DNA from: a virus
Direction: 5' to 3' (one strand)
IMG/VR virus record: IMGVR_UViG_3300030098_004286
Span: 1-24,248 of that record
DNA length: 24,248 nt
Under the pieces are notes generated by a model. It made no database searches. It was not told where the DNA came from and saw only the letters and a program-made list of their open reading frames with translations. How positions within the stretch are numbered: the first letter of the stretch is position 1; the number at the start of each line of letters is the position of its first letter. Positions 4,129 through 23,589 of this stretch are shown piece after piece. The position numbers and the translations under genes are program-made.

Positions 4129-4249
4129 TCTCGTACTCCGTTAATTCGCGTCTTAATATCGGCGCTAGCTCTAGCGGCACCTCAATCACCTGATCGCCTT
4201 GGAGCAGGAAAAAGCCGCCGTCGCGCACAATGATAAATTCTTCGCTCAT
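4103..4249 (-). CDS. Small acidic protein (48 aa), hypothetical
   Basis: A short frame whose ATG overlaps the stop of the metallophosphoesterase gene (ATGA at 4246-4249) and whose end overlaps the DUF6378-like gene. It begins MSEEFIIVRDGGFFLLQGDQ and continues VIEVPLELAPILRRELTEYE, a compact beta-then-helix pattern with net negative charge. No family is recognised. The tight overlaps on both sides and good coding character support a real, translationally coupled gene. Confidence 0.6.
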   Translation of the reverse strand: MSEEFIIVRDGGFFLLQGDQVIEVPLELAPILRRELTEYENEQGGLDA

Positions 4250-5424
4250 ACCAGCATCCCCGGGTTAACCGAGTGACGGCAGTATTCGCCGTGTTCTCTG
4301 TGAAACGTTACCGACTTCATGCCGCGAGTAGATCGGTAGCCAGCGCCAGAGTGATGCGCGTCCGGTGGGGGCAAGATGCTAAAGCTCTCCACTTTGGACC
4401 CGCGTCCGCTACCTTGCCTGTCGTGGTGGATATGGCCGGTCCACATAAACCGATGCTCGGAATCAGCCCAATCCTTGGGGCGGTCATTCGCCATAATCAG
4501 CGAAAGGTCATCGGCTTTAGTAATGCGTACTTTGTGGCCGTGGTGCGTGCCGATCAGCGTTTTGCCGAAGCGGTAATAGTGATAAAGCCCGGGGCTGGTA
4601 TCTATCGTAACCCGGCCTTCATTCTCATAAACATTTGCTAGGCAGGCTCTAAGGAATACCGTGCTGGCAGGGTCGTGGTTGCCCTCCTCCACGATCACAT
4701 GAACAGTTCTATGCTTATCTAGCGCTCGTTCTATCAGGTAGCGCATCGATCGTATGGCAGCCTCAACGATCTTCGGGAAACGGGTGTCCGTATCCAAAAG
4801 GTTGCCGCTGGTGGGTGTTAGCGCCGCATACCCATCAAAATGCATGTAGTCGCCCAAGAAGGCTATCAAAGCCTGGTCGCTCGGCATTGCACGATCAACT
4901 AGGTGATCCATAGCCCCGGTGATAAGCTCCTCGCCTATCTTTAGGTCGTAGTCCGCACCGGTTTCGGGAGCCCACGAAAGCATCCCGAGATGATGATCGC
5001 CTATCGGGTATCCGGTGAGTAAGTCCTTCGAATATTCCTTTAATGCAGGTTTTCTAGGTTTAGTCCGCTTAACGCTACCAGCCAGTCCCTCGATAGCGGC
5101 TTCCATCGCCGCTTGTTGGCGTTCCTGGTCAATGCCGGTCTTTACCCACTCCAACACCAACTCGCCATCGGCGTCATAGAGTGTGGACTTGCCCTTTATG
5201 AAATAACCGTCCGCTACTTCATGGCATGCGCCGCCATCAGGCGAATAGCCGCACTTGTCGGCCTTGTCCTTTACAACGGCCCACGCCTGGCAGATCAGGT
5301 TATTTGCTACGCCAAGCGCTTCGGCGGCCTTTCGTTGGCTACCGTGTTCTTTCCACGCCGTTAGTAATTCCCATTGGCGTGGGGTGCTAAACCGCTCTAG
5401 GGCGGGGTCCAGCACAAATGCCAT
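4246..5424 (-). CDS. HTH-metallophosphoesterase fusion protein
   Basis: A 392-aa protein with two parts. Residues about 15-45 (RQWELLTAWKEHGSQRKAAE...) form a helix-turn-helix of the type found in transposases and phage regulators. From about residue 138 a calcineurin-like metallophosphoesterase fold shows all metal motifs in order: GDHHLG (142-147), GDYMHFDG (191-198), EEGNHD (ending at 251), GTHHGHK (292-298) and GHIHHD (330-335). The family hydrolyses phosphoesters, including nucleic acid ends and cyclic nucleotides, using two metal ions. The substrate here is unknown; the DNA-binding N-terminus suggests it acts on or at DNA. Similar proteins are found in other tailed phages, usually annotated only as phosphoesterases. 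It starts 27 nt after the preceding frameshifted gene and overlaps the next ATG by 4 nt. Its place between membrane and lysis genes is unusual. Confidence 0.88.
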   Translation of the reverse strand: MAFVLDPALERFSTPRQWELLTAWKEHGSQRKAAEALGVANNLICQAWAVVKDKADKCGYSPDGGACHEVADGYFIKGKSTLYDADGELVLEWVKTGIDQERQQAAMEAAIEGLAGSVKRTKPRKPALKEYSKDLLTGYPIGDHHLGMLSWAPETGADYDLKIGEELITGAMDHLVDRAMPSDQALIAFLGDYMHFDGYAALTPTSGNLLDTDTRFPKIVEAAIRSMRYLIERALDKHRTVHVIVEEGNHDPASTVFLRACLANVYENEGRVTIDTSPGLYHYYRFGKTLIGTHHGHKVRITKADDLSLIMANDRPKDWADSEHRFMWTGHIHHDRQGSGRGSKVESFSILPPPDAHHSGAGYRSTRGMKSVTFHREHGEYCRHSVNPGMLV

Positions 5425-7909: not shown

Positions 7910-7939
7910 AAAAAATAACCCCGCTTTTACATGGCGGGG
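7910..7939 (-). terminator. Intrinsic terminator after the ejection-protein genes
   Basis: On the minus strand CCCCGC, a 9-nt loop and GCGGGG form a perfect 6-bp GC stem (7919-7924 with 7934-7939), followed by TTATTTTTT. It lies about 200 nt past the 519-aa gene and 44 nt before the fibre gene. On the plus strand the same stem is not followed by a T-run. Confidence 0.75.
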
Positions 7940-12234: not shown

Positions 12235-13740
12235 TTAAAGCAGCCCGCCGGGGACATATTGATAGTTGGTTGCCACCCAGGACGGGCGCTGCGTATTCGT
12301 ATCAACGCGCACCCTTAAAGCGCCTGAGCGCCCAATCCCGGTTATGCCTCGCCAGCCCCGATAAACGGTGCCGTCTGTCCCCCACTTATCAATTCCCCAC
12401 TTGCCGCTTCCCCACTTCGCCGCGCTAACGGGCGATGCGGTATTGCTTCCAATGGGTGTGGTGACGGTAAAATCTGTGTAAAAATCCAGCGAAGGATTGG
12501 GATCGCCAGAGCTGGTAAAAATCGGCTCCGCCATTCTGAACGCTTTGGATTTCTTGGACCCGAAATAGTTAAAGGCCTGCAGGGCATCGCCGTTGATAAT
12601 GGACCCTAAGTCCGAATTGCCCGTGTCCAGCTTAATTACCGTGCCCGAATAGGTGCCGCCATATAGCTCGTCATTCAACAAAGACAGGCTAACAACGTTC
12701 TGCCCGGTAAACCGGGCCGGAGCGCCGGTGATGGTGTTGAAAACGTATTGATGCGCCTGACTGTTACCCACAGGAACGTTGAAAAGCATCATGGTGCCGC
12801 GTGGATATAAAACCGGTTGCCAACCAAAATTGCCGCCGTAATCCCTAACGGCATCATTTACCGCCTTGTTGATTTGATCGCTAAGGGCGCCCAGCCGGGC
12901 TTGCGTGCGATCGACCGATAGAATGGATGAGGCCGTAACAAACCCGTCCTCTGTCACCATCACCAAGTCAGGCCCGGCCTTTATCATGCATCGGCGACCT
13001 ATTGGCTTGCCAATTCTAAACACGCCCACCAGCGCCCACTTTGTGGCGTCGTTGGGGTCTGTGCCCTGATATACGATGGCCTCGCCTTCCGATGTCAGGA
13101 ATACCGCGGCATCGTCCTTGCCGTCGCCCGCATCCTGGGTCCAGGTCGCCATCGCCATCAGGTAGCCGCCCTGCGTAGCAATCCCCCCCAGTTTAAATTC
13201 GGTTGCAGCGCCGGTTATGGAATCAACGCCCAAGTACCATGCCGAAAGGCTATTTTGCTCGCCAAACCACAAGCGCCGCTGGTGGAGGTTGCACCATATT
13301 AGGCTCGCCATAGTGGGGCCGGTGGCTGTTGTGGTTGACCACGTTGACCCATCGTACACACGCGGCGTATCCGCACCATTAACGCAGAACAGATATTGCC
13401 CCGCGGCGGTGCCCACATTCACATGCTGCCAGCGGTCGTTAGACAGGCTCGACACATCGGCGGCGCCAACATCGCCCGAACCCGATGCATCATAAATAGC
13501 GTTATTATTAGCCGCGAATAGCTTGGATGATCCGGTAAGCGGCGTGTATTCCATAAGCGTCTCAACCGCACCACTCATTCCAGTGGCATGGGAAACGCTC
13601 CCGCCCCTTAGCCTAACTTCTTCGGTTTCGGGGAACCAATTATCCAGTATAACTGCATGAGTCTCGGGCATATCCGCAAGAGCATCCCTTGTGTTCCAAC
13701 CTCCTGTCGGGGCTGGCAAAGATGAACTTGTGCCGGGCAC
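12235..13740 (-). CDS. P22 gp10-like tail hub / packaged DNA stabilisation protein
   Basis: A 501-aa protein of the group that contains P22 gp10, which plugs the portal exit after packaging and forms the hub on which tailspikes and needle assemble. The N-terminus (PAPTGGWNTRDALADMPETH, then AVILDNWFPETEEVRLRGG) is characteristic. The rest is a series of beta blades (LFAANNNAIYDASGSG, YLFCVNGADTPRVYDG, RRLWFGEQNSLSAWYLG, DAAVFLTSEGEAIVYQG), consistent with a beta-propeller, and ends with tryptophan/glycine-rich strands (KWGSGKWGIDKWGTDG). The start is GTG, sharing a base with the TAG of the upstream chaperone-like gene. Assignment rests on this pattern and on the order fibre, hub, ejection proteins. 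Confidence 0.75.
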   Translation of the reverse strand: MPGTSSSLPAPTGGWNTRDALADMPETHAVILDNWFPETEEVRLRGGSVSHATGMSGAVETLMEYTPLTGSSKLFAANNNAIYDASGSGDVGAADVSSLSNDRWQHVNVGTAAGQYLFCVNGADTPRVYDGSTWSTTTATGPTMASLIWCNLHQRRLWFGEQNSLSAWYLGVDSITGAATEFKLGGIATQGGYLMAMATWTQDAGDGKDDAAVFLTSEGEAIVYQGTDPNDATKWALVGVFRIGKPIGRRCMIKAGPDLVMVTEDGFVTASSILSVDRTQARLGALSDQINKAVNDAVRDYGGNFGWQPVLYPRGTMMLFNVPVGNSQAHQYVFNTITGAPARFTGQNVVSLSLLNDELYGGTYSGTVIKLDTGNSDLGSIINGDALQAFNYFGSKKSKAFRMAEPIFTSSGDPNPSLDFYTDFTVTTPIGSNTASPVSAAKWGSGKWGIDKWGTDGTVYRGWRGITGIGRSGALRVRVDTNTQRPSWVATNYQYVPGGLL

Positions 13741-16691: not shown

Positions 16692-16719
16692 AGGAAAGGC
16701 CCGCCCCGAAGGGCGAGCC
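16688..16719 (-). terminator. Intrinsic terminator with UUCG loop after the coat gene
   Basis: On the minus strand GGCTCGCCC, TTCG and GGGCGGGCC give a 9-bp stem with one G-U pair closed by the very stable C(UUCG)G tetraloop, then TTTCCTTTT. It begins 9 nt past the coat stop codon. It would cap the coat mRNA, protecting its 3' end and lowering expression of the genes beyond. Confidence 0.85.
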
Positions 16720-18990: not shown

Positions 18991-20853
18991 TCACTGCGCG
19001 GCTGTATTTCCTCCATTAAAAAACCCGGCCTGAGCCGGGTCGATTGGGGGAACTGGTTGGCCGGGCAACCCCGGCTGCGCTGGTTGGCCGGGCAACCCCG
19101 GCTGCGGCTGAGTTACAGCCTCTACCTTGTCTGCCAGATCATCAGCCCCCACTACATCCATATGACGCAGTAGCATCGGGCCAATAAACGGCGCTGCGGC
19201 GGGGTACACCCGCAGTATTTCAAGTAATGCCTCGCGGGTTTCTTCGCGCTGTGTGGCGAAATTCGGGCCGCTTTCAACGGTTACATCGTAGGTGCCAACC
19301 CCTAGATTATAGAGCTTGCGCTCACCATCCTCTTTAAATTCGCCGGGGTTTTCTTGGGTTAGGTTAACAACGTTCTCTTTTTGGTCGGGGCCAAGTATGC
19401 GGATGGCTTCCCGGGCCCCATACACATGGGGGATAATTTCCACCAAGCACCGCCCAGCGTACTCAACGGCGCGATTCAGGTTATCAACGAAATGATAGTT
19501 GCTGATATCGCCCTGGCGCTCGCGGGCCAAGATTGCCCTGCCGCTTGTTTCATTCGATCGCGCGCCCAACGAACTATCATAAATCCCAGTAATGGCCTTG
19601 ATATCATCTGATGCGTTTAGAGCCTCTTGGATGGCGCCCGCGGGCACGCCCGCAAAAGGCTGCCGTTGCGGCGCCGCTTGGCCCTCATATTCCAGGTGGG
19701 CGTGGGAGCGTGTGTTAGCGGTTGCCCATTTTTCTTCATGCCCCTTCGGCACAAAACCTTTCGGGCCGATAAACGGCGCACGGGGGGCCAGGGCCACCAA
19801 CTCAGTAGAGGCGGAGCGCCAGTAATTGAACATCTGCTGCGGGTCACGGGCATCGCGAATTAGTGAGCGGAAATGCCTGCGCCCTTCGCTGTAAACCTCA
19901 TCACCCAACACAGGACAAATCGGAATCGTAGAGCCCGGCCACTTGGACTCCTCAAGAACATCGGCGCCAGAGATAACCCGGCGCGTGACTTCGTTAAATG
20001 TGCTTTCGCGTTCGCGGACAGCCTCTAGCCCCGTGTCAATGCTGGCAGCGGTTAGGACTTCATCATCCTTGAGCTGCTTGGCAATCTCCGAGTCCATACC
20101 GCCCGCGACCAAAACCTCCCGGGCCAGATCGGGCAAATGTTCTTCGCGGACAACGCGGCCATTATTGAGTTGAACGATCTTCTTTTTGACCTGTGTGCGC
20201 TCCCAATACTCGGCAACGCGAATATTGTCATCGCTCAACCAATGCTCTACGCCGTCAAATGTCGAGCCTTCAAATTCAACCTTGTCCGCATCAGGGTAAG
20301 CCGCCTCGAATTGTTCTTTCGTGTAGAACTCCGAGACAAATGCATATTCCCAATCGCTGGCATCCGCCTCTGAGCTGTTTACATCCCAGTGCACCATCAG
20401 GGGGTTTGGGACACGCTTGAAACGGCACTCCATTTCAAACGACATCGGATGTACATAATCGATTTCCAGTCGGAAAAAGCCAAACCCGCTCGTTACTGCG
20501 TGATCAACAGCGGTATCCTTAGCGACATCGCCGCCCTTGCGCTCTATGGCGCGTACCAAGCCACCAATGACCTCAGCGGTGCCCTCGTCCGCGCCATTGT
20601 CTACCGGGCGCACTTTAACGCCAGGCGTTGTGCGGCGCGCTTCGTTGGTTACTTGGCGAATAAACGTAGGCAGCCTGTTGATAGTGAGGCAGGGGCGGCC
20701 CTCTTGGGTGCGAATCTTCTTAATGTCTTTGGGCCACTGATCCGCCAGGCGCGCAAAGCGTATGTCTTCCTGCGCCTCATCTCGGTTGTGACTAGAAACT
20801 GTCTGAGATTCGTCGAATTTCTCCAACGCCTCAGCAAGTATGTCTTTATCCAT
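18991..20853 (-). CDS. Portal protein, P22-like
   Basis: A 620-aa protein of the P22 portal family (gp1, 725 aa). The N-terminus contains KFDESQTVSSHNRDEAQEDI and FARLADQWPKDIKKIRTQEG, then GRPCLTINRLPTFIRQVTNE ARR-type wing sequence and SGFGFFRLEIDYVHP. Later parts include YWERTQVKKKIVQLNNGRVV and the stem-helix/crown region SGRAILARERQGDISNYHFV. Twelve copies form the ring through which DNA is packaged and ejected. The C-terminus is Pro/Gly/Gln-rich with a perfect 9-residue repeat (QPGLPGQPx, twice), so it is shorter than and different from the long P22 barrel. The ribosome site is GAGG 6 nt from the ATG. The last codons contain an intrinsic-terminator-like hairpin. Confidence 0.92.
   Translation of the reverse strand: MDKDILAEALEKFDESQTVSSHNRDEAQEDIRFARLADQWPKDIKKIRTQEGRPCLTINRLPTFIRQVTNEARRTTPGVKVRPVDNGADEGTAEVIGGLVRAIERKGGDVAKDTAVDHAVTSGFGFFRLEIDYVHPMSFEMECRFKRVPNPLMVHWDVNSSEADASDWEYAFVSEFYTKEQFEAAYPDADKVEFEGSTFDGVEHWLSDDNIRVAEYWERTQVKKKIVQLNNGRVVREEHLPDLAREVLVAGGMDSEIAKQLKDDEVLTAASIDTGLEAVRERESTFNEVTRRVISGADVLEESKWPGSTIPICPVLGDEVYSEGRRHFRSLIRDARDPQQMFNYWRSASTELVALAPRAPFIGPKGFVPKGHEEKWATANTRSHAHLEYEGQAAPQRQPFAGVPAGAIQEALNASDDIKAITGIYDSSLGARSNETSGRAILARERQGDISNYHFVDNLNRAVEYAGRCLVEIIPHVYGAREAIRILGPDQKENVVNLTQENPGEFKEDGERKLYNLGVGTYDVTVESGPNFATQREETREALLEILRVYPAAAPFIGPMLLRHMDVVGADDLADKVEAVTQPQPGLPGQPAQPGLPGQPVPPIDPAQAGFFNGGNTAAQ
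19018..19040 (-). terminator. Terminator-like hairpin inside the last portal codons
   Basis: On the minus strand ACCCGGC, TCAG and GCCGGGT form a perfect 7-bp stem with a 4-nt loop, directly followed by TTTTT. It encodes part of DPAQAGFF near the end of the portal. By sequence it is a textbook rho-independent terminator or attenuator, placed about 60 nt before the scaffold start. Confidence 0.7.
19053..19106. repeat. Perfect 27-bp tandem duplication in the portal C-terminus
   Basis: Positions 19053-19079 and 19080-19106 are identical. In the portal frame each copy gives nine residues, QPGLPGQP plus one more, a short collagen-like or disordered segment. Confidence 0.95.
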
Positions 20854-21010
20854 TCACAACCTCGGGGGATTTTATGGCCTCGCGGACCTTGTTTTCTAAG
20901 TAGAGTTCCTGCGCGAACTGGGTCCATGTGGCGAAGTCGGGGTTTTCTTCCAGCGCCTCTTCAACCAAGCGCGTGGCGAGTTCAGTCTGAGTTTCCACTA
21001 AGCCATCCAT
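20846..21010 (-). CDS. Small helical protein between terminase and portal (54 aa)
   Basis: The start is taken as the ATG at 21010, which overlaps the last codons of the terminase gene; the longer frame from 21094 lies fully inside terminase and is unlike coding sequence. The product (MDGLVETQTELATRLVEEAL through TWTQFAQELYLENKVREAIK) is charged and helical, with no recognised family. Its stop overlaps the portal ATG by 8 nt, so the three genes are coupled. A head assembly or packaging accessory role fits the position only. Confidence 0.65.
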   Translation of the reverse strand: MDGLVETQTELATRLVEEALEENPDFATWTQFAQELYLENKVREAIKSPEVVNG

Positions 21011-22245
21011 CCACCGGACATTGCCGGTGCTTCTACATGTTTCGGGTTTGATTTCTCCCGCGTCATCTGCGGGAATAGTTCTGTAAATGCCCAAACCAGA
21101 GCATCCACACGGTCGGGGCTCCCCTGGCCCTCATAGCCCGCTGCCGTCATCTGGCACATTTGGCTTTCAAGCTCGGGGAACGCCCCGACATGCGAGATGC
21201 GGCCCAATTGGTACAGGGCGGATATGGGTTCTGCTCTTACATGCTTTCCGCGTGTCGCCCTTACCTCCACAATGGGGAGGCCAGGCCTAGCGGCTTCTAA
21301 GGTGTGTCTAACCATATCGCCGCCCTGATTCACTTCGATAACAATTGCATCGGCCTCATAGCGGTCATAGGCCGCAATAGCCCTGTTGGCCCATTCTCGG
21401 GGCGTACCGCCCAAGCTGTAGTCATCCAGGACATAGCCGCGCTGATCTTCACCAAGGCCGCAGACAATTATTCCGTGTTCGTTTGAGCCCGCCTCTGAGC
21501 TAACCGCAGGGTCAACCGCAATCACTATCCGTTCACAGGTTGCGGCCTCACGGCGGTGGGCATGAATTGTTTGCCTATCCCAAATTGCACCGATCGCGGT
21601 GGGCTCGTATTCGCCCAACCAAATGTGTGCGTAGCGGTCCGGATTGTTCTTTAGGTCGAATTGGCGTTCGTCTTCCAACTCTGCCGGAAACCACGGATTA
21701 TCTGTGTAGTTTGCCCTCACCACCATTGCACTTTGAGGCAAGGCTGTGCCACGCAACAGGCGGTCTATTGGGTCTGTTTCGTGCCTTGGGTTCCAACCGC
21801 CCCAAATCTCTGACCCGGGCTTACGAATAGTGGGTCGAAGCAATTCAAGGCTGCGGGCGGATAGCGTCTGCCCTTCCTCAATCCAGGCCGCGTCGTAATC
21901 CTCAAACGACTTAACGCTCTCCGCCGTATGGTCTTGCATACCCACGAATGAAATAACGCCGCCGCCGGGCGTGCGAATTTCATCGTTGCGCGCGTCGAAG
22001 GCCCCACCAGCTTCGTGGTCTCTGATTTTATTTTCCAGCAGGCGTTTGGCTGAATCCTTAAGGCTTTTCTGGATTTCACGAATGCACAACAAGCTGAACG
22101 GAGGTCGGATTAAACAATTCTCGATGCCAAGGCCAGCAAAGAAATGGCTTTTCCCGGACCCCCGGCCACCGTGTGCGCCCTTGTAACGATAATTCCCCAG
22201 CAGCGGGCGAAAAACCTTCGCCGTGGGAATATTAAGGCTCGACAA
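20998..22245 (-). CDS. terL: Terminase large subunit (packaging ATPase/nuclease)
   Basis: A 415-aa terminase large subunit, the motor that drives DNA into the head and cuts it. The ATPase domain shows Walker A GGRGSGKSH (about 26-34), Walker B FEDYDAAWIEE (about 114-124) and ISFVGMQD between them. The nuclease domain shows the RNase-H-like acidic strand RIVIAVDPAVSSE (about 240-252), then GGDMVRHTLEAA and a C-terminal acidic motif in SPDRVDALVWAFTEL. The domain order and size fit headful or pac terminases of the P22-like group. The start appears to be TTG, overlapping the small subunit gene by 14 nt. No ATG lies near the Walker motif upstream, so the start codon is less certain than the gene. 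Confidence 0.95.
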   Translation of the reverse strand: MSSLNIPTAKVFRPLLGNYRYKGAHGGRGSGKSHFFAGLGIENCLIRPPFSLLCIREIQKSLKDSAKRLLENKIRDHEAGGAFDARNDEIRTPGGGVISFVGMQDHTAESVKSFEDYDAAWIEEGQTLSARSLELLRPTIRKPGSEIWGGWNPRHETDPIDRLLRGTALPQSAMVVRANYTDNPWFPAELEDERQFDLKNNPDRYAHIWLGEYEPTAIGAIWDRQTIHAHRREAATCERIVIAVDPAVSSEAGSNEHGIIVCGLGEDQRGYVLDDYSLGGTPREWANRAIAAYDRYEADAIVIEVNQGGDMVRHTLEAARPGLPIVEVRATRGKHVRAEPISALYQLGRISHVGAFPELESQMCQMTAAGYEGQGSPDRVDALVWAFTELFPQMTREKSNPKHVEAPAMSGGWMA

Positions 22246-22489
22246 TCTCGCGGACTATCTTTTCAAAATGCAGCCCACCGCTTAATTCGGTTTCCTGCTT
22301 GGGTTTGCCGAACCCTCGGTCCAAGAGGCTGTTGGCCGCAGACACGCGCGCAGCGTGGGGCGCTTCCTTGTCGTCGGTGATATCGAGCAATGCGCCTATC
22401 GCCCTCTTGGCGTGCTGTCTAGCCAGTTCGCGCACTTGCACAGTTGCTTTATTCCGCGCTCCCTTAGGGCGGCCCGGACCTTTAGCCAT
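22232..22489 (-). CDS. Terminase small subunit-like protein (85 aa)
   Basis: An 85-aa protein with the typical start MAKGPGRPKGARNKATVQVR, followed by helices (LARQHAKRAIGALLDITDDK; AARVSAANSLLDRGFGKPKQ). This GRPKG-type N-terminus with one helical repeat is characteristic of short phage proteins directly upstream of the large terminase (DUF5681-like), which act as the DNA-recognition subunit. It is shorter than the P22 gp3 (162 aa). It overlaps the large subunit by 14 nt. The nearest purine-rich box, AGAGG, is 15 nt from the ATG, which is long. Confidence 0.7.
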   Translation of the reverse strand: MAKGPGRPKGARNKATVQVRELARQHAKRAIGALLDITDDKEAPHAARVSAANSLLDRGFGKPKQETELSGGLHFEKIVREIVEP

Positions 22490-22529: not shown

Positions 22530-22748
22530 TTAGTGAACCGTATCCCCGAATTGTTCCCTTTCATGCATAGCAACCACTGCCTCAATATCGATCGCTACGA
22601 ACATCGCTTCTGCTTCTTCGGTGAAGGGGCCAAGGGATACCCAATACTCACCGGTGTTGATGTCATGGGATACGGAGAATAGATCGTGTTTCATTATGGG
22701 CCGCTTTTTGGCTTTTGATTCTACGCCTTTTAGCTGCGATATTGGCAT
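22530..22748 (-). CDS. Hypothetical small protein (72 aa)
   Basis: A 72-aa frame; a start at the inner ATG 22694 (MKHDLFSVSHDINTGEYWVS) would give about 54 aa and a more compact protein. The visible part has a beta-rich core (GEYWVSLGPFTEEAEAMFVA) and an acidic helix near the end (VVAMHEREQFGDTVH). No family is recognised and neither start has a good ribosome site. It lies between the Lys-rich mini-protein and terminase small subunit genes and is probably real because the gap would otherwise be empty on this strand. Confidence 0.45.
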   Translation of the reverse strand: MPISQLKGVESKAKKRPIMKHDLFSVSHDINTGEYWVSLGPFTEEAEAMFVAIDIEAVVAMHEREQFGDTVH

Positions 22749-22779: not shown

Positions 22780-22890
22780 TTATTTGTACGTCCGCTTTTT
22801 CGTGCCCATCGGCATCTTCTTCTTGCTTTTGGCTTTGGTAGTCTTACGCTTCGCAGGCTTTGCTTTTTTACCCTTCATCATTCCATACAT
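22780..22890 (-). CDS. Lys-rich mini-protein (36 aa), first gene of the late transcript
   Basis: The frame starts at ATG 22890, with AAAGG 7 nt upstream, and encodes only 36 residues, about half of them Lys or Arg (MMKGKKAKPAKRKTTKAKSK, ending GTKKRTYK). It would bind nucleic acid or another acidic partner. No family is recognised. It lies 17 nt past the leader terminator, so its mRNA depends on readthrough of that site. It may be a virion-associated DNA-binding peptide or a regulator; neither can be shown here. Confidence 0.55.
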   Translation of the reverse strand: MYGMMKGKKAKPAKRKTTKAKSKKKMPMGTKKRTYK

Positions 22891-22906
22891 TCTTAGGCCT
22901 TTCAAT

Positions 22907-22947
22907 AAAAAACCCCGCGAGTGTGCATCGTCGAGAGGCCCGCAGGG
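22907..22947 (-). terminator. Leader terminator upstream of the late genes
   Basis: On the minus strand CCCTGCG and CGCGGGG pair over 7 bp (one G-U) around a long loop, followed by TTTTTTA. It lies between the promoter at 23046-23074 and the first small late gene, about 130 nt from the expected transcript start. Confidence 0.7.
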
Positions 22948-22967
22948 TGTTGTTTAAATAATGCTTG

Positions 22968-22984
22968 CGCCCTCTTTAGGGGCG
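22968..22984 (-). other. Second hairpin in the late leader RNA
   Basis: CGCCC and GGGCG pair over 5 bp with a 7-nt loop (CTAAAGA on the minus strand). It has no T-run and lies between the promoter and the leader terminator, so it could be a pause or recognition element. Confidence 0.45.
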
Positions 22985-23045
22985 GGAAATCATCTTTTGT
23001 CTCCGAAGGGATTGAAATCTAAGCATAGCTTTAGATATTAGAAAT

Positions 23046-23074
23046 AGCATATATTGTTATTTGCCCTTTTGCAA
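23046..23074 (-). promoter_or_regulatory. Candidate late promoter
   Basis: On the minus strand TTGCAA (-35) and TATGCT (-10) are separated by exactly 17 nt in an AT-rich stretch (23030-23075) that contrasts with the surrounding GC-rich genes. No other equally good pair is visible upstream of the late genes. The expected start is about 23039, with a leader of about 130 nt before the terminator. Confidence 0.6.
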
Positions 23075-23112
23075 GCACAAAATGCAGTGGTCTCGCCAAG
23101 CCTCTTCCCGCG

Positions 23113-23589
23113 TCATTCGCTAACACCCCTTGCCAACCCACCCCACTTATCGAGCTTGTCCAAGCCCTCCTTTAGCCAGCGCAACCTATGGCGGGTGATG
23201 GGCGGGTCATCTGCTATTACGATATCTCGCACCACACGCCAGTGCTTCTCGCCACATACAGCCGCAGCCATAACGCAAGCACTCCAAGCATCTTCCGATC
23301 TGGCGAACGCAGATTGCACGCTGCCATGCCCCACCATATCCGAGTATTGGCTAATTACCTGCGGTGATCCAACCGCTACATGGTGGCAATTCTGTAGATC
23401 TCGGGCAGTTAAAAACTGATCCTCGGTTATCTTGCCACGCCCATGTAAACGATGGATGGTGGTGGGCCATTTTACCCTCGCCCTACTCCTTACCTCTCCG
23501 CTTTCGTTCTCGGGGGCTTCGATAATGAGGGGGTCGTGTTGCCCGCGTTGCTTGGTGGGCATTACGGAGTGAAGGGCTTGTTTAGGCAT
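23113..23589 (-). CDS. Unrecognised 158-aa protein in the antiterminator (Q) position
   Basis: A hydrophilic 158-aa protein. It has a basic N-terminal region (ESGEVRSRARVKWPTTIHRL), then GRGKITEDQFLTARDLQNCH, a middle with conserved-looking aromatic and charged residues, and a C-terminal helix-rich part (EKHWRVVRDIVIADDPPITR, HRLRWLKEGLDKLDKWGG) that could be a DNA-binding HTH. It loosely resembles DUF6456-type alphaproteobacterial regulators, but this is weak. It starts with an 8-nt overlap of the methyltransferase stop. It lies immediately before the late promoter, leader and terminator, the place of an antiterminator in lambdoid phages. A regulatory role is inferred from that context. Confidence 0.6.
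   Translation of the reverse strand: MPKQALHSVMPTKQRGQHDPLIIEAPENESGEVRSRARVKWPTTIHRLHGRGKITEDQFLTARDLQNCHHVAVGSPQVISQYSDMVGHGSVQSAFARSEDAWSACVMAAAVCGEKHWRVVRDIVIADDPPITRHRLRWLKEGLDKLDKWGGLARGVSE

Follow-up and report, generated by a model that had tools for sequence, protein, structure and literature searches.

The window analyzed here, i.e. a full IMG/VR record of 24,248 bases, probably harbors the late-gene switch of a tailed phage with a P22-type portal, in which antitermination by a GafZ-related protein would take the place of Q. On the minus strand, a 158-aa open reading frame (ORF) is followed by a promoter-like site, a ~130 nt-long leader, a strong terminator and, finally, the terminase, portal and head genes. 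The ORF occupies positions 23113–23589, confirming a sequence-only reading of the same DNA that had placed it ahead of the late genes, and it begins just before the DNA methylase gene located upstream (24247–23582) ends, such that the two overlap. It lies between early and late genes and adjoins both the promoter-like site and the leader terminator, which is the placement typical of Q.

The late genes are likewise encoded on the minus strand, as are all features below unless stated otherwise. As read from the sequence, the first reading frame past the terminator is a small lysine-rich ORF of 36 aa (22780–22890). It is followed by a 72-aa ORF (22530–22748), for which ORFs of ~62–65 aa preceding the late genes in loci L004 and L006 are possible counterparts as judged by eye, a probable terminase small subunit (22232–22489; phrog_15261, E 3.7e-15; phrog_2538, TerS, E 0.005), the terminase large subunit (TerL; 20998–22245; PF04466, PF17289), the P22-type portal (18991–20853; PF16510, E 8e-172), scaffold, coat and so on. 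The several later terminators mentioned in the sequence-only reading were recovered in a terminator scan: one within the 3′-terminal part of the portal gene (19023–19066; −17.4 kcal/mol, T5 tail), one after the coat gene (16698–16719; −18.1 kcal/mol) and one at 7919–7939 (−10.3 kcal/mol). Elsewhere in the late region, a 392-aa protein (4246–5424) appears metallophosphatase-like by eye and has an N-terminal HTH-like stretch with weak Pfam HTH matches. A 501-aa protein (12235–13740) matches PHROG 5107, named amidase (E 2e-120), a name that may be wrong because the position and length of this protein suggest a virion protein. At the record end opposite to the switch, type I restriction-modification genes lie on the plus strand (38–1701): the C-terminal portion of a methylase (N6_Mtase) and, after it, the specificity subunit HsdS. 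They may belong to flanking host DNA or be cargo of the phage.

The 158-aa protein has no match in Pfam, PHROGs or NCBIfam. Known antiterminator families were rejected as candidates in these collections, and PDB searches by sequence and by fold returned nothing significant. Its homologs in viral contigs comprise L002/L005 (99% identity; one contig, not independent of the window) and L003, L004 and L006 (~60%), while close homologs in GTDB genomes, annotated phages and plasmids were absent or at chance level. Even at E 10, the Pfam DUF6456 profile (PF20057) failed to match the window protein, L003 or L004; its curated score cut-off, which the window protein does not reach, is passed by relatives at the same genome place in L134 and L183. 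A first profile built from 15 DUF6456 proteins of genomes and prophages was searched against 19,260 six-frame ORFs and returned as new matches only the window protein, its L006 homolog and an ORF of L008 (E 0.0036–0.016), a further match in L063 being a copy of a seed. With a strict profile of 30 DUF6456 proteins, from which every relative reached via the window protein was excluded, the window family scored at E 0.002–0.007 among 26,052 ORFs (0.007 for the window itself). The searched loci had been fetched by TerL and matches could fall anywhere within them; the matching gene lay upstream of TerL and on the TerL strand in 9/9 contigs with a match, counting L063, which carries a seed, and L190, which is weak at E 0.8.

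Profile–profile alignment with hhalign gave a score of 36.9 against the strict DUF6456 profile (E 2.1e-5, probability 77%), compared with at most 18.3 and 1.5% for 200 column-shuffled decoys. Iterated profiles, enlarged with the help of window relatives but built without the window family itself, gave stronger values (window E ~1e-9, hhalign probability 96%). AlphaFold models of the protein (pLDDT 61 and 70) are nearly all helical, and Foldseek with the first model retrieved 11 viral models at probability ≥0.98 before a drop to 0.08; the two informative names among these 11 were both DUF6456 phage proteins, matched at probability 1.0. Judged from profiles and predicted structures, the 158-aa protein is a divergent DUF6456/GafA-GafZ relative and hence a branch of a known antiterminator family, rather than the founder of a new one as had been suggested. 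The kinship was missed previously because it falls below detection by Pfam, PHROGs and NCBIfam.

DUF6456 is the annotation carried by GafA homologs (PMC9638019). Caulobacter GafZ, the counterpart of the C-terminal part of GafA, was reported to be an antiterminator that travels with RNA polymerase and passes terminators; it associates with NusA, NusG and NusE and depends on an element that lies, like the lambda Q site, between −35 and −10 (PMC11150451). GafY, with which it partners, is similar to DnaA domain IV (PMC9632790). A DnaA-domain-IV-like gene precedes the DUF6456-type gene in L003, L004, L006 (Pfam Bac_DnaA_C, E 8e-17), L055, L172, L177 and the gene transfer agent (GTA) loci. In the window, this region would lie beyond the end of the record. 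Because the 158-aa protein is kin to DUF6456/GafZ, GafZ is an antiterminator (PMC11150451) and the order of gene, promoter, terminator and terminase recurs in other phages, the Q-like place and role assigned in the sequence-only reading is supported.

The leader ends in the only sense terminator of the gap, a hairpin at 22947–22912 followed by U6 (feature 22906–22950). This intrinsic terminator ahead of the first late gene, predicted earlier, is well above chance, with 0.3 terminators per 869 nt in shuffled sequence. It is also an abiF-type RNA hairpin, which had gone unremarked. The Rfam abiF RNA model (RF03085) aligns to it over its full length as the single match of the record (27.1 bits, E 1.1e-4), below the gathering score of 37, whereas the hairpin of L203, located 99 nt past its DUF6456-like gene, reaches 39.7 bits and shares the loop GCCTCTCRACGATGCRCAC with the window. 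This core sequence occurs in at least 120 viral stretches, against a chance expectation that we estimate at ~5, and the stems vary but still pair. Covariation of the stem was evident in A5, a subset of 21 hairpin sequences picked for equal spacing, a choice that favors the structure; a 50-sequence alignment (A4) was left out of model building because its 3′ arm was out of register. The covariance model R1, derived from A5 without the window or L203, recovered the hairpin of the window with an E of 1.3e-10.

AbiF-type hairpins that stand alone are common among phage contigs (at least 120 loci, L268–L387), and most of them have a U tract and lack AbiF. An Abi_2/AbiF gene (PF07751) was found neither in the window nor in 29 other hairpin-bearing records; of the 120 loci listed, a single one, L318, carries it directly behind the hairpin (E 2.6e-53) with phage genes adjoining, and serves as a positive control for the family, as abiF-type RNA and terminator directly precede the toxin gene. 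Of these same loci, which were chosen by the hairpin alone, four contain a DUF6456-like gene (the contig of L203, L349, L275 and L297; 2/4 already by the strict profile). Since all four genes sit upstream of the hairpin on the same strand, at distances of 77–535 nt, hairpin and gene family are associated. Most DUF6456-type switches use ordinary terminators, and among some twenty TerL-selected loci only L203 has the abiF type. Promoters upstream of the hairpin were only weakly enriched in 81 loci (9 vs 5, 0 and 2 strong sites), and we therefore do not claim that all abiF-type hairpins are free small RNAs.

The best promoter-like site of the gap consists of a −35-like TTGCAA (23069–23074) and, 17 nt downstream, a −10-like TATGCT (23046–23051), with a predicted start at ~23039. 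The proposed promoter is thus present as a sequence (23074–23046), but it agrees with the consensus at 8/12 positions, and because 38% of shuffled gaps hold at least one equal match, it is not above chance on its own. The window promoter is weak and gains support from its relatives, which have TTGAC[AGT] at the same place; the counterpart in L203 reads TTGACT-17-TACGCT. The ~130 nt-long leader (~23039 to ~22912) folds no better than shuffled sequence (z −1.09), so that the two hairpins previously drawn upstream of the terminator are not significant and the whole leader was rejected as a structured RNA; its nucleotide similarity to known phages is at chance level. A second exact TATGCT at ~+13 to +18 (23022–23027), within an inverted repeat ATCTAA...TTAGAT (23017–23036), may by its placement resemble the sigma-dependent pause element of lambdoid pR′.

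Terminase-based searches added 232 loci to the comparison. The anatomy of the switch is repeated in L008, L009, L015, L055, L197, L203, L172 and L297. Between the DUF6456-like gene and TerL, a terminator is present in L008, L009, L015, L055, L197, L203, L206, L172, L116 and L044; it was not detected in the gaps of L134, L152, L247, L190, L043, L177 and L160, some of the most divergent ‘DUF6456-like’ genes in either set (L116, L044, L160, L043, L177) being assigned by iterated profiles only. In L008, L009, L197, L203 and L172, a TTGAC promoter is located at most 15 nt from the stop of the gene and the hairpin begins 18–55 nt past the −10. TTGAC was found at most 150 nt before the hairpin in 10/15 relatives tested (P about 3e-6, for a set not fully independent), and some relatives have near-consensus promoters (L197, TTGACA-18-TATAAT; L183; L008). 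In L004 and L006, which harbor the closest relatives of the protein, genes on the opposite strand follow the homolog of the 158-aa protein, and a search of the gap found no sense leader terminator above chance. Short inverted repeats are present in the promoter spacers of L172, L015, L203 and L008 and are candidate counterparts of the GafZ site. Repeated AAACCCGGACACCAGTGTCCGCCTTTT inverted repeats between opposite-strand genes (L004, 2205–2232 and 2487–2514; L003, 2658–2686) are probably terminators.

From the homology, conserved gene order, terminator and hairpin identity established computationally, we infer how promoter use, polymerase loading, antitermination and accumulation of the leader RNA would proceed. 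Before the switch, transcription would end at the leader terminator, freeing a ~130-nt RNA with the abiF-type hairpin at its end. The 158-aa protein would be made late in the early phase and join RNA polymerase at the promoter that directly follows its gene. The polymerase thus loaded would then read through the leader terminator as well as three or more later terminators, and so transcribe the long head–tail operon.

The main rival to antitermination is that the 158-aa protein is a GafA-like activator that does no more than increase initiation from the late promoter, with the hairpin as a fixed attenuator or insulator. The DUF6456 family could work either way, because the description of Rhodobacter GafA is that of an activator binding the omega subunit of RNA polymerase (PMC9638019), not of an antiterminator, and the poor −35 of the window is shared with activator-dependent GTA promoters (PMC11150451). 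Yet the near-consensus promoters of L197, L183 and L008 should need no activator and nevertheless have a strong terminator directly behind them, and a strong terminator ahead of a late operon makes little sense without read-through. We consider an activator of initiation alone unlikely.

Still less probable is a unit that is chiefly a small-RNA gene, i.e. a promoter with an abiF-type RNA, with the late genes starting elsewhere and the regulator adjacent by chance. This would fit the abiF type of the hairpin and the many phages that have such hairpins without AbiF, but not the ordinary terminator found in the same place in most relatives, nor the consistently upstream, same-strand position of DUF6456-like genes in the 120 hairpin-selected loci listed. 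A true antiterminator of the lambda Q/Q21 family, unrelated to GafZ, would share the genome position observed here; with no Q-family match (Q, Q21, PF06530, PF03589) in Pfam, PHROGs or NCBIfam, nor in the PDB by sequence or fold, this reading was already disfavored and we regard it as very nearly dismissed. Antitermination by a GafZ-related protein is the reading that we prefer.

The identity of the terminator raises a more tentative, if attractive, idea. In the bacterial defense system AbiF, the toxin is countered by abiF RNA as its antitoxin (PMC12373285), and the leader might serve two purposes: the free abiF-type hairpin could accumulate, bind host AbiF, a Cas13 ancestor, and neutralize it before the switch, after which the GafZ-like antiterminator would read through it. 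We think this possible but doubtful. A precedent is the pseudo-ToxI of phage PhiTE, for which a decoy function was shown in another toxin–antitoxin family (PMC3475682), and an abiF RNA has been noted in cyanophage S-CREM1 with no role given (PMC9964418). If true, a dual-purpose leader would link the timer of the late genes to an RNA decoy against abortive infection.

Taken singly, none of GafZ antitermination, lambda-type switches or abiF RNAs is new. A search of open-licence papers yielded nothing on DUF6456 proteins as phage equivalents of Q or on abiF-type RNAs in late leaders. Our analysis suggests that in a group of phages the part of Q is played by antiterminators of the GafZ type, which are familiar from domesticated gene transfer agents. 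The GTA regulator would then have originated in phages, and many natural promoter–terminator pairs would become available for study. Antitoxin-type abiF RNAs that lie inside phage late leaders without a toxin make the idea of phage counter-defense directly testable.

Compared with known systems, the window resembles lambda Q-pR′-tR′ in that its regulator gene is followed by a promoter, a short leader with a terminator and then the late genes, and in a possible second −10 element within the initial transcribed region; it differs in that its protein is unrelated to Q by every test made and its terminator is an abiF-type RNA. With GafZ and the C-terminal domain of Rhodobacter GafA (PF20057), the protein shares distant homology over ~100–150 residues, a DnaA-domain-IV-like partner gene upstream in several relatives, and a place before a head–tail cluster with terminators. 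In contrast to these proteins, it is about half the size, lies below Pfam detection, has by eye a shorter C-terminal HTH part than GafZ relatives, and has its gene on a phage contig, where it adjoins the promoter presumed to be the target. The hairpin matches abiF RNA (RF03085) in full length, invariant 18-nt core and U tract, but is a single copy in a record without an abiF gene and scores 27.1 bits against a gathering score of 37. Like PhiTE pseudo-ToxI, it is a phage-encoded copy of a host toxin–antitoxin RNA without the toxin gene, although from another RNA family and with a decoy role that is demonstrated there and conjectural here.
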